Source of the DNA: Bacteroidales bacterium | GTDB lineage: Bacteria > Bacteroidota > Bacteroidia > Bacteroidales > P3 | Length of the DNA: 64,000 bases | Assembly (NCBI GenBank): GCA_009783885.1 | Contig: WRCN01000002.1 | Span: 62,001 to 126,000, forward strand | Reading direction: 5' to 3' | Shown: positions 2,956-42,428 of the stretch, one piece after another | How the letters are laid out: every line of letters begins with the position of its first letter | Numbering within the stretch: position 1 is the first letter of the stretch | Position numbers and translations under genes: made by a program | The notes under the pieces: generated by a model | Database searches by the model: none | What the model was told of the DNA's origin: nothing | Seen by the model: only the letters and a program-made list of their open reading frames with translations

Positions 2956-4416
2956 ATGAATTTTGAAGACCTATTTTTCGCTTACGCAAACGAATCGATT
3001 GAACATATCGAACCGTTATCCGCATCAGGAGGTTCGTATCGAAAATATTATCGTATCAACGGAAAAACTAAGCATTGTTTAGGTGTTGAAAATGTTGATA
3101 AAAAAGAAAACTTGGCATTCGTGGATTATACACGACAATTCAAGGCTTTAGGTTTGAATGTTCCGAAAATATTAGCGGAAAATTTAGACGAAAATAAATA
3201 TTTAATTGAGGATTTGGGCGATGAAACACTGTATTCATATCTTACTAAATACAGAATTGACAATGGTTTTGATGAACATTTGATTCAACTTTACAAATCC
3301 GCCATCAAACATTTGTTAGAATTTCAAATCAAAGCAGGCAAACATTTCGATTACACACACGCTTACCCACAAGCAAGATTCGGCAAACAATCCATACTTT
3401 GGGATTTGAATTATTTTAAGTATTATTTTCTCAAATTAGCCAAAATTTCGTTCGACGAAGAAGCACTGGAAAATGATTTTGAAATATTCTCAAACTTCCT
3501 GTTGACAGCGCCTTCAGAGTATTTCATGTATCGAGATTTTCAATCGCGAAATATTATGTTGCACGATAAAAAATTATATTTCATCGACTATCAAGGCGGT
3601 CGGAAAGGTGCATTGCAGTACGATTTGGCATCGTTGATTTATCAAGCAAAAGCAGACATTCCGCATACAGTTCGCGAACAACTCTTAGATTTTTATATCG
3701 TTGAACTTCGCAATTACCAAGATGTTGACGAAGTTTTATTCAAAAAACAATTCTACGCATTTGTTTTTATTCGCATTATGCAAACGCTTGGAGCGTATGG
3801 ATTTCGCGGATTCTACGAAAGAAAAGATTATTTTTTGAATAGCATTCCGTTTGCGACTGACAATATTGAATTTCTGTTGAAAAATTTCGATTTTCCAACG
3901 GAAACACCTGTTTTGAAAGATACTTTAACACAAATTATCAACAGCAAAAATCTGCGTCATCAAACCTTACAATCTTCAACCGAGCCCTTTGACTGCGCTC
4001 AGGATAAACTTGCGAGCTCAACGAAGTTAAATTTGATTGTAAGCATCAATAGTTTTTCTTTCAAAAAAGGTTATCCCGACGATATTTCAGGCAACGGCGG
4101 CGGATTTGTTTTTGATTGCAGAGGATTGCCAAATCCCGGACGTTACGAGGAATACAAAACCTTAAATGGGAAAGATAATGCGGTAAAAAAATACTTGGAA
4201 CAATACGAGGAAGTTGCTGATTTTATTGACATTTCCTATCGTTTGGTTGCACCTACAATTCGAAATTATATCTCGCGAAATTTTGAACATTTGCAAATTA
4301 ATTTTGGTTGCACAGGCGGACAACATCGCTCTGTTTATTGCTCCGAAAAACTTGCTGAAAAAATTTCACAAAACTTTAATATCCAAATTATTATAAATCA
4401 CAGGGAACAAGACTAA
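2956..4416 (+). CDS. APH-like phosphotransferase fused to a RapZ C-terminal domain
   Basis: A 486-residue protein. The N-terminal half (about 1-330) is an aminoglycoside-phosphotransferase/AmgK-like kinase: catalytic loop YRDFQSRNIMLHDKKLYFID (Brenner-type H replaced by Q/R region, D retained) and the magnesium-binding IDYQGG. The C-terminal part (about 355-486) is the RapZ (YvcJ) C-terminal domain, with DCRGLPNPGR and FGCTGGQHRSVY. AmgK-type kinases phosphorylate cell-wall amino sugars at C1 and RapZ senses glucosamine-6-phosphate, so an amino-sugar salvage/sensing role is a reasonable inference. Between the domains lies a repeat-derived peptide, EPFDCAQDKLASS. ATG chosen from the adjacent promoter; upstream in-frame codons are inside element A. 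Confidence 0.8.
   Translation: MNFEDLFFAYANESIEHIEPLSASGGSYRKYYRINGKTKHCLGVENVDKKENLAFVDYTRQFKALGLNVPKILAENLDENKYLIEDLGDETLYSYLTKYRIDNGFDEHLIQLYKSAIKHLLEFQIKAGKHFDYTHAYPQARFGKQSILWDLNYFKYYFLKLAKISFDEEALENDFEIFSNFLLTAPSEYFMYRDFQSRNIMLHDKKLYFIDYQGGRKGALQYDLASLIYQAKADIPHTVREQLLDFYIVELRNYQDVDEVLFKKQFYAFVFIRIMQTLGAYGFRGFYERKDYFLNSIPFATDNIEFLLKNFDFPTETPVLKDTLTQIINSKNLRHQTLQSSTEPFDCAQDKLASSTKLNLIVSINSFSFKKGYPDDISGNGGGFVFDCRGLPNPGRYEEYKTLNGKDNAVKKYLEQYEEVADFIDISYRLVAPTIRNYISRNFEHLQINFGCTGGQHRSVYCSEKLAEKISQNFNIQIIINHREQD
3980..4027 (+). repeat. palindromic-element fragment read in frame
   Basis: This stretch of the phosphotransferase/RapZ gene (GAGCCCTTTGACTGCGCTCA and following) matches, in reverse complement, the left arm of composite element C near 58098-58150. 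It is translated as EPFDCAQDKLASS in the linker between two domains, where an insertion would be tolerated. Confidence 0.65.
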
Positions 4417-40997: not shown

Positions 40998-41018
40998 TTT
41001 AAAACTAGAGTAATAAAT

Positions 41019-41330
41019 ATGTTAAAAAATTTCACAAAATCTATCGTAATTTTTGGATTAATATTTTTTATCAGTTCTTGTGAAGGACATCGTTGGGCTG
41101 AGGGAACAATTTATGATTCTAAAACAGAAGAGCCTATTGATAGTGTGTTATGTGTAGTAAAAAATGGCAGCGATGTACAATATTCTGATAGTCTTGGAAA
41201 GTATTTGGTACATGGCCCTTTTGGCGGTTGCGTGTTTGGTTGTAAGGATGCTGTTGTTGAATTTTTCAAAACAGGTTATAAAGCGCAGACTGCCACAAAT
41301 CCCAAAAACATTTTTTTAGAAAAAGAATAA
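41019..41330 (+). CDS. small lipoprotein
   Basis: A 103-residue protein with a signal segment and lipobox FISSC (Cys near 21). The rest has GTIYDSKTEEPIDSVLCVV and SLGKYLVHGPFGG, a carboxypeptidase-regulatory-like beta pattern as in the lipoprotein at 23706. Function unknown. It ends shortly before a hairpin with T run. Confidence 0.6.
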   Translation: MLKNFTKSIVIFGLIFFISSCEGHRWAEGTIYDSKTEEPIDSVLCVVKNGSDVQYSDSLGKYLVHGPFGGCVFGCKDAVVEFFKTGYKAQTATNPKNIFLEKE

Positions 41331-41376
41331 ACAGATAATATATTTGTTAGCATTTTACAGTGACGTTGCAGTATTT

Positions 41377-41406
41377 AGGCAGGGGATTTTTTTCCTGCCT
41401 TTTTTG
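41377..41406. terminator. hairpin terminator
   Basis: AGGCAGG / CCTGCCT with a T-rich loop and a following T run. A similar GCAGGG-T7-CTGCC block is found at 49800-49820 upstream of the DUF349 gene. Confidence 0.65.
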
Positions 41407-41440
41407 TTAAAAAAATTTAACCCTTTTTAAGAATTTTTAA
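41407..41440 (+). promoter_or_regulatory. TTAA array with 10-bp period before the GIY-YIG promoter
   Basis: TTAA occurs at 41407, 41417, 41427 and 41437, exactly one helical turn apart, ending 24 bp before the -7 box TAACTTTG. The same plan is present, on the minus strand, at 44879-44932. It looks like an array of binding sites or phased A-tracts. Confidence 0.55.
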
Positions 41441-41464
41441 GTTTTTTCTTTGGTTTTTTTGTTG

Positions 41465-41472
41465 TAACTTTG
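41465..41472 (+). promoter_or_regulatory. -7 box of the GIY-YIG gene
   Basis: TAACTTTG, nine bases before the first hairpin of the GIY-YIG element, so transcription would begin at the hairpin and give a leader of about 150 nt with three stem-loops. Confidence 0.6.
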
Positions 41473-41481
41473 TACTCGCAT

Positions 41482-42012
41482 GTTCCCTTCGGCTCCGCTC
41501 AGGGAACGTGGCGGTTTGATCAGGGAACGGACAGCGCGGTGGCTGAGCGGAGTCGAAGCCATCGCTACACATCACGTTCGTTTCGACTCCGCTCAACGAA
41601 CGAAATCGAAGCGAACGAATAACAAAACCATTATGAAAGGATACATGTATATTTTAGAATGTGCTACCGGACACTATTACACAGGTAGCACAAACAATTT
41701 AGAACGCAGATTGGCAGAACATCAAAACTGCGAAGGTGCTAATTTTACAAAAAAATACTTGCCTGTAAAGTTGGTATATTTTGAAGAGTTTCAAAGAATA
41801 GATCATGCTTTTTATAGAGAAAAGCAAGTACAAGGTTGGAGTAGAAAGAAAAAAGAAGCGTTGATAAATGGAACACTTGAAAAGTTGTACGAATTATCGG
41901 AGTGTATGAATGAGAGTCATTGCAAAAACGTTCCTTGTTCCCTGACCACTACCCCACGTTCCCTGAGCGGAGTCGAAGGGAACAACGGTGGCTTCGACTC
42001 CGCTCAGCCACC
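41482..42012. mobile_element. GIY-YIG nuclease gene enclosed by hairpin repeats
   Basis: Left: hairpins GTTCCCT...AGGGAAC (41482-41507), GGTGGC...GCCA (41539-41562) and CGTTCG...CGAACG (41575-41602). Right: GTTCCCT...AGGGAAC (41958-41983) and GGTGGC...GCCACC (41987-42012). The 30 bases 41482-41511 match 41954-41983 in reverse complement at 29 positions; 41539-41562 matches the complement of 41989-42012 exactly. All hairpins contain TTCGACTCCGCTCA (or TTCGGCTCCGCTC) or its complement within different arms. Confidence 0.65.
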
Positions 42013-42088
42013 AGCAAAAATTACGCAAAATAAGGTCTCAACTTCTCCGCAAACCATTCCGGACAACGACAAGGCTTCATCGTCGTAG
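41633..42088 (+). CDS. GIY-YIG nuclease with repeat-encoded C-terminal tail
   Basis: A 151-residue protein. Residues 1-95 form a small GIY-YIG nuclease of the UPF0213 type: YMYILE (the GIY strand), YYTGSTNNLERRLAEH (the YIG strand and the conserved Arg), and YREKQVQGWSRKKKEALI (the catalytic Glu helix). From about residue 100 the frame runs into the right-hand hairpins and encodes CSLTTTPRSLSGVEGNNGGF and then FDSAQPP before a stop 67 bases inside the convergent thioesterase gene. The ATG is chosen because earlier in-frame codons are inside the left hairpins. It may cut DNA hairpins or repeat ends, but this is inferred from position only. Confidence 0.8.
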   Translation: MKGYMYILECATGHYYTGSTNNLERRLAEHQNCEGANFTKKYLPVKLVYFEEFQRIDHAFYREKQVQGWSRKKKEALINGTLEKLYELSECMNESHCKNVPCSLTTTPRSLSGVEGNNGGFDSAQPPAKITQNKVSTSPQTIPDNDKASSS

Positions 42089-42428
42089 AATCTACAAACA
42101 CAAGCACTGTCATTCCTTTATTCAAAAGTTCACCTTGCTCATTGTAAATTTCGTAACGGTGTAATAATTTTGTTGTAGGCATTTCTACCAACCACATTTT
42201 TATGGTCAGCAATTCATCGTAACGTGCAGGTCTTTTATATTCGATATGCATTTCTCGACAAGGTAGCATTACACCGCGCTGTTCCATTTCGGGATACGAC
42301 GTTCCGAGACCGCGCATACTTTCATTTCGCACCACTTCGTAATACGCAGGGTAGTTACCATAATAAACATAACCCATTTGATCGGTTTCGCCGTATCGAG
42401 GTCTAAGTTGAGTTTCAAAACTATACAT
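42021..42428 (-). CDS. acyl-CoA thioesterase, YbgC/FadM-type hotdog protein
   Basis: A 135-residue 4-hydroxybenzoyl-CoA-thioesterase-like protein: RPRYGETDQMGYVYYGNY (catalytic Asp in ETDQMGYVYY), then the EVVRNESMRGLG helix typical of the hotdog fold. Probably hydrolyses acyl-CoA thioesters in the cytoplasm. Its 3' end is overlapped by the extended GIY-YIG frame. Confidence 0.88.
   Translation of the reverse strand: MYSFETQLRPRYGETDQMGYVYYGNYPAYYEVVRNESMRGLGTSYPEMEQRGVMLPCREMHIEYKRPARYDELLTIKMWLVEMPTTKLLHRYEIYNEQGELLNKGMTVLVFVDSTTMKPCRCPEWFAEKLRPYFA

Follow-up and report, generated by a model that had tools for sequence, protein, structure and literature searches.

REPs are among the commonest repeats of bacterial genomes. 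For the members of the CGTC superfamily, whose hosts include Bacteroidetes and to which the dRS3 repeat of Neisseria belongs, there is apparently no dedicated transposase (Di Nocera et al. 2013, PMC3733652), and with no enzyme gene known next to CGTC REPs, the way in which they spread was left open in 2013. GIY-YIG proteins are not mentioned in that paper. The UPF0213 GIY-YIG proteins of known structure (PDB 1zg2 and 1ywl) bear the name hypothetical and have no function assigned to them, and no association with hairpins is given for them. No prior report linking GIY-YIG proteins to REPs was found in the open-licence full-text literature, a scope that leaves out preprints and most subscription journals.

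We analysed a stretch of 64,000 nucleotides, here called the window, from a 2.05-Mb, 98%-complete Bacteroidales genome (G000). At 41482-42012, a GIY-YIG gene is enclosed by five hairpins that share a constant 14-nt loop, TTCGACTCCGCTCA, and differ in their stems. Three hairpins precede the gene: hairpin 1 (41482-41507, plus strand; stem GTTCCC/GGGAAC, loop TTCGGCTCCGCTCA), hairpin 2 (41538-41563, minus strand; imperfect stem GGTGGC/GCCATC) and hairpin 3 (41575-41602, plus strand; stem CGTTCGT/ACGAACG). Two follow it: hairpin 4 (41958-41983, minus strand; stem GTTCCC/GGGAAC) and hairpin 5 (41987-42012, plus strand; stem GGTGGC/GCCACC). The core TTCGACTCCGCTCA accordingly occurs five times, at 41488, 41544 (minus), 41582, 41964 (minus) and 41993, once with one mismatch. 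The initial annotation had described a 30-bp sequence at 41482-41511 whose inverted copy at 41954-41983 differs by one mismatch, a GGTGGC...GCCA hairpin at 41539 with an inverted copy at 41989, and the same core with other arms between and beside them. All of this was confirmed, and the inverted pairs in full comprise 41481-41528 with 41937-41984 (48 nt, 88%) and 41538-41564 with 41986-42012 (27 nt, 96%). Terminal inverted repeats, a feature of insertion sequences, are present, but they are inverted unit by unit and not as one block. Searching the window for the core with up to two mismatches returned seven matches (0.29 expected), and the two outside the element, at 3988 and 32689, were weak. 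The annotation's hairpins scattered over the window are thus essentially confined to the element within the window, and their dispersal is genome-wide instead. The element gave nothing near threshold in a search for known RNA families.

The protein encoded between the hairpins is a GIY-YIG domain (PF01541, E=2.6e-16). Its gene likely starts at the ATG at 41633 and, on the plus strand, extends to 41938 when ended at the stop position of its paralogue, which gives a protein of ~101 aa. Across the active-site columns of 30 relatives, Y6, Y16, R26 and E63 were invariant and H30 was kept in 90% or more, so that the catalytic residues expected of a PF01541 member (two Tyr, Arg, His/Tyr and Glu) are conserved. 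An AlphaFold model (pLDDT 84) was closest to UPF0213 1zg2 and 1ywl, which are also the closest solved structures by sequence, with Slx1 next; the sequence profile was concordant in these fold neighbours. No defence or phage protein family matched the protein. The window copy lacks a stop codon at 41936, and the frame stays open to 42088, crossing hairpins 4 and 5 (41936-42088, plus strand) antisense to the 3' end of a thioesterase gene (42021-42428, minus strand), with which it overlaps tail to tail at 42021-42088. Since the near-identical paralogue, the second genomic copy, stops directly after ...CKNVP, the hairpin-encoded tail is a product of read-through, the window copy having lost its stop codon. 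The residues SLSGVEG and FDSAQPP, noted earlier as an element-encoded extension, do extend the protein of the window copy but are not a shared protein feature. With the paralogue intact, the 3' end of the window copy may be undergoing decay. Elsewhere, two window-type copies (L230 and L231) carry substitutions at the active site (H to R and Y to C) and are apparently decaying.

The hairpin family was then characterised across the genome, in which the core occurs 166 times when one mismatch is allowed (89 forward and 77 reverse; reversed-pattern control, 0). We retrieved 60 stretches around core copies and analysed 116 hairpins. The stem positions next to the loop were paired in 93-98% of these hairpins, compared with 51-75% when arms were dealt randomly, and the pairing came from several alternative base pairs. 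Pairing of the stems is maintained while their sequence drifts, and the loop is maintained in sequence, although its constancy arises partly by selection because copies were found through their loop. Since the stems vary with compensatory pairs, recognition of the stem was rejected for this class, and bases of the loop or foot are more likely to be recognised. The flank composition of the 116 hairpins contained no GTAG tag. Membership of the window's own hairpins in the CGTC superfamily was also rejected: the [C/T]GTC tag and AT-starting stem are not met, no GTC-AT hairpin lies inside the element (four lie elsewhere in the window), and, the tag being missing, we treat the window hairpins as a separate class. 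A CGTC-type REP, GTCATTCCTCGACTTCGCACACGCAGTGTGCGAAGTCGAGGAATC, is located at 2709-2752 of the window on the minus strand, and belongs to the same kind as the repeats that precede the genome's remaining three standalone GIY-YIG genes.

Most of these hairpins are arranged in doublets. Adjacent pairs were head-to-head in 47 of 49 cases, with 12-35 bp separating the cores. The loops of partners are complementary, and a doublet can therefore fold as one long hairpin, for which folding gave about -20 kcal/mol, versus about -6 for each of two short ones. Partners with like stems were found in only 1/47 doublets (12.9 expected), a typical pairing being GGTCGT with GGTGGC. Same-stem partners were thus avoided in the 47 head-to-head doublets (L059 and L082 are examples) despite the complementary loops; a long palindrome without mismatches may not be tolerated. 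Such heterodimers have been called unexplained (PMC3733652).

We investigated which enzyme could serve this family. The genome contains no Y1/HUH transposase gene (PF01797) and thus no RAYT, and no Y1 transposase was found in G000, G102, G129, G378, G204, G292 or G101. A RAYT as the hidden enzyme was ruled out for this genome on that ground, and for the hairpin class because none of 28 RAYT genes adjoined it. Standalone GIY-YIG genes number five, in addition to UvrC; the window-type hairpin flanks two of them, and the other three have a CGTC-type repeat upstream.

At E<=1e-15, 94 of 396 Bacteroidota genomes encode a relative of the window protein. The hairpins adjoining these relatives have loops that begin with [CT]TCG[AG] and end with CTC[AG] on variable stems, and the loop variants include TTCGACAGGCTCA in the same genus and TTCGAGAGCCTCA, TTCGGCAAGCTCA and TTCGATACGCGCTTCGCGCTACTCA elsewhere. 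An initial narrow loop pattern missed longer-loop relatives such as TTCGATACGCGCTTCGCGCTACTCA and was widened after the flanks had been read; the widened pattern was shaped by some of the loci on which it was tested, but its controls remain zero. When only hairpins with 5 bp or more of perfect stem within 300 bp of the gene were counted, YTCGR...CTCR hairpins adjoined 23 of 35 window-type loci, on both sides in 13. They adjoined 0/29 other GIY genes and 0/28 Y1 transposase (RAYT) genes in hairpin-rich genomes, 0/80 UPF0213-type GIY loci and 0/350 shuffled flanks. The enrichment of TTCGACTCCGCTCA hairpins beside GIY-YIG genes, which the initial annotation had proposed to look for among UPF0213-type genes, therefore holds for the window's own subfamily but not for the UPF0213 type, which goes with GTC-AT REPs. 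As a positive control, RAYT genes shared a flank repeat in 18/28 cases, compared with 22/34 window-type GIY genes, and the repeats differed. The repeat class also tracked the protein tree of 154 standalone GIY domains, requiring 36 changes versus 71.7 when shuffled; near-identical copies add to this clustering, and 18 of the 154 (12%) had no detectable flank repeat.

Window-type GIY genes were commoner in hairpin-rich Bacteroidota (22/43) than in the others (72/353; p=3e-5), which leaves 21/43 hairpin-rich genomes without one at E<=1e-15. One of these hosts, G102 (one contig, 3.9 Mb), lacks both a small GIY gene and a Y1 transposase and yet carries 192 exact-core copies; either it has lost the enzyme, or a different one acts on the family there. 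The closest relative of the window genome, G002, retains 64 hairpin copies without the gene. Enzyme loss after spread would explain hairpins without the nuclease, and so would a separate spreading agent. Tandem arrays of standalone GIY-YIG genes were seen at L109/L120, at L110/L121/L125 and at places in G232, G270 and G087. The copies at L109/L120 and L121/L125 adjoin tRNA-like repeats, which could be structured-DNA partners of a third type for GIY-YIG genes.

The association of UPF0213-type genes with REPs was examined across phyla by scanning GTDB contigs with a GIY-YIG alignment, which yielded 80 named loci from many phyla that were picked on protein similarity alone. The upstream and downstream 250-bp flanks shared a repeat in 61% of the GIY genes, compared with 3.5% of 767 same-locus ORFs and 5% of shuffled pairings (GIY versus control, Mann-Whitney p about 1e-27). 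Nearly all shared repeats had the form [C/T]GTC-AT-stem-loop-stem-AT-C. GTC-AT hairpins were present on both flanks of 33/72 GIY genes (46%) and of 5/708 control ORFs (0.7%; p=8e-33), and when intergenic gaps were matched for length the figures were 64% and 6.2% (p=2e-20). No enrichment beside these genes was found for six control tags, two alternative stem starts or GTAG. The features of CGTC REPs ([C/T]GTC tag, AT-starting stem and CCA-like tail) were met at 54/72 loci; the tag base was T or C in 127/147, and CCA was the commonest tail. The nearest hairpins on the two sides were mutually inverted at 26/33 loci, with the tag mostly outward. By these features, the REPs beside UPF0213-type GIY genes are assigned to the CGTC superfamily of PMC3733652. 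Cognate REPs were dispersed in the host genomes at a few to about 200 copies; a planctomycete has 198 of them and a Neisseria gonorrhoeae record 169, and the reversed control gave 0. In the latter, at L192, dRS3-type CGTC repeats flank a standalone GIY-YIG gene, and their high copy number there makes this single case less telling.

Evidence on mobility came from a second copy and from empty sites. The second copy of gene plus hairpins lies at about 41680-42130 of G000:C3; its gene is 90% identical to that of the window element and its right-hand hairpins 89%, and no similarity was found outside. Homology is thus limited to the span 41482-42012, and this comparison shows that gene and hairpins moved as one unit. 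Compared with a homing endonuclease gene, which would be inserted in its own recognition site at homologous loci, the gene stands between hairpins, but the hairpins occupy non-homologous sites. In G002, whose neighbouring thioesterase gene is 99% identical, about 35 bp separate rny from the thioesterase gene, and positions 41000-42016 of the window are missing. The right breakpoint of this indel falls 4 bp past hairpin 5, and its left side takes in a lipoprotein-like ORF (41019-41330), so that the indel exceeds the hairpin-bounded element on the left, a point against the explanation that we favour. At orthologous doublet sites, the doublet was missing from G002 in 8 of 9 cases (about 390 kb of G002 searched). 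Empty sites, which the annotation had named as a check together with the occurrence of the repeat with and without the gene, therefore exist. Doublets thus turn over between close relatives; the comparison gives neither the direction nor the responsible enzyme. The designation as an autonomous element is only partly supported, with unit movement and empty sites for it and the persistence of hairpins in genomes without the nuclease against it.

The explanation that we consider probable is that the GIY-YIG gene makes up a mobile unit together with the hairpins on either side of it, and that the dispersed hairpins are non-autonomous, REP/REPIN-like derivatives for which the GIY-YIG protein is the dedicated nuclease; binding, cutting and the route of transposition are inferred. 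Enrichment, the match of nuclease subfamily to hairpin class, unit movement, presence or absence of doublets and the conserved active site are all observations. That REPs merely gather in intergenic gaps or near dispensable genes, with the GIY-YIG genes as bystanders, could be entertained since REPs are abundant in some of the genomes concerned. It is already contradicted by the controls, namely the length-matched gaps (6.2% versus 64%), the same-locus ORFs (0.7% on both sides) and the 0/57 count for RAYTs and GIY genes of other subfamilies from the hairpin-rich genomes, and we give it almost no credence.

Two other readings grant the nuclease a real connection to the hairpins. It might be a homing-type parasite, a selfish GIY-YIG gene that cuts pre-existing REPs and is copied in by break repair while the REPs spread otherwise. 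GIY-YIG is a classic homing-endonuclease fold, the gene is located between hairpins, its copies are few and the hairpins many, hairpins persist without it, and other GIY genes are located in tRNA-like repeats. We still regard this as unlikely: hairpins that were only landing sites would leave their own spread unexplained in genomes without another REP transposase, and genomes with a low copy number hold much of the family at the gene flanks, one of the two copies in G514 being beside the gene. It is more doubtful still that the protein is a host-domesticated, structure-specific nuclease that trims or resolves REP cruciforms, with adjacency reflecting autoregulation and not mobility. Slx1, the closest fold outside UPF0213, does cleave branched DNA, but a domesticated enzyme fits poorly with patchy presence, the occurrence of two copies in a single genome at sites unrelated to each other, the decaying copies L230 and L231 and a hairpin class specific to the subfamily. 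The suggestion in the initial annotation that a GIY-YIG nuclease plays the part of a RAYT for these hairpins is supported by strong enrichment, absence of Y1 transposases from this genome, unit movement and empty sites, with binding and cutting remaining inferences.

Recognition and cutting of its own hairpin class are proposed for the nuclease because its active site is conserved and its fold is nearest to UPF0213 and then Slx1; they are inferred from fold, from the specificity of the association and from the constant loop. The Slx1-like nuclease would recognise hairpins of its own family, either extruded as a cruciform or formed in the single-stranded DNA of the lagging strand, through conserved bases at the loop (YTCGR...CTCR, in the window class) or at the foot (the GTC-AT tag, in the other clade). 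It would cut at the recognised hairpin, and the cut would release or expose a hairpin doublet, which might then be copied or joined elsewhere through host repair and ligation. Mobility would need such host functions, as GIY-YIG enzymes hydrolyse DNA without rejoining ends. More broadly, standalone GIY-YIG proteins may be the long-missing dedicated enzymes of palindromic-repeat superfamilies, both CGTC REPs and YTCGR...CTCR-loop hairpins, forming cross-phylum mobile elements that spread by structure-specific hydrolytic cutting and host repair without a transposase; we see the case for and against this wider proposal as evenly balanced.

The cross-phylum pairing of GIY-YIG genes with hairpins hints at a type of bacterial mobile element that has been overlooked, and it gives both sides a testable role, an enzyme for the REPs and a candidate substrate for UPF0213-type GIY-YIG proteins. 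It also supplies small proteins that can be studied, along with their matched targets, as candidate hairpin-specific nucleases. Compared with known systems, the locus shares the GIY-YIG fold with Slx1, at lower similarity, and the branched-DNA cleavage of Slx1 suggests how a hairpin could be cut. Slx1 is a eukaryotic protein that has Slx4 as its partner and carries further domains, and it is not a mobile element. With GIY-YIG homing endonucleases the locus shares the nuclease fold, and a selfish-gene logic is possible; unlike them, it shows no intron or intein, and its DNA motif is scattered through the same genome, with copy numbers that reach into the hundreds. The locus resembles REP/REPIN-RAYT systems: palindromic hairpins are dispersed, mostly as head-to-head doublets, one or a few enzyme genes are flanked by the same hairpins, the enzyme subfamily matches the hairpin class, and repeats are shared across the gene's flanks about as often as for RAYTs. 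RAYTs, however, are HUH/Y1 transposases flanked by REPs, whereas the enzyme here is a GIY-YIG protein of unrelated fold and hydrolytic chemistry, and the hairpin foot has no GTAG tag. With these two defining features, Y1 transposase and GTAG tag, unmet, we do not class the locus as REP/RAYT. On the best reading by analogy, Slx1-like GIY-YIG nucleases would be hairpin-specific REP partners with a role like that of RAYTs for GTAG REPs, their binding, cutting and catalysis of mobility being inferred. What is new is a REP-plus-enzyme pairing with an unrelated nuclease; its anatomy works like that of REP/RAYT, which suggests that an unrelated nuclease fold may have reached the same partnership with hairpin DNA.
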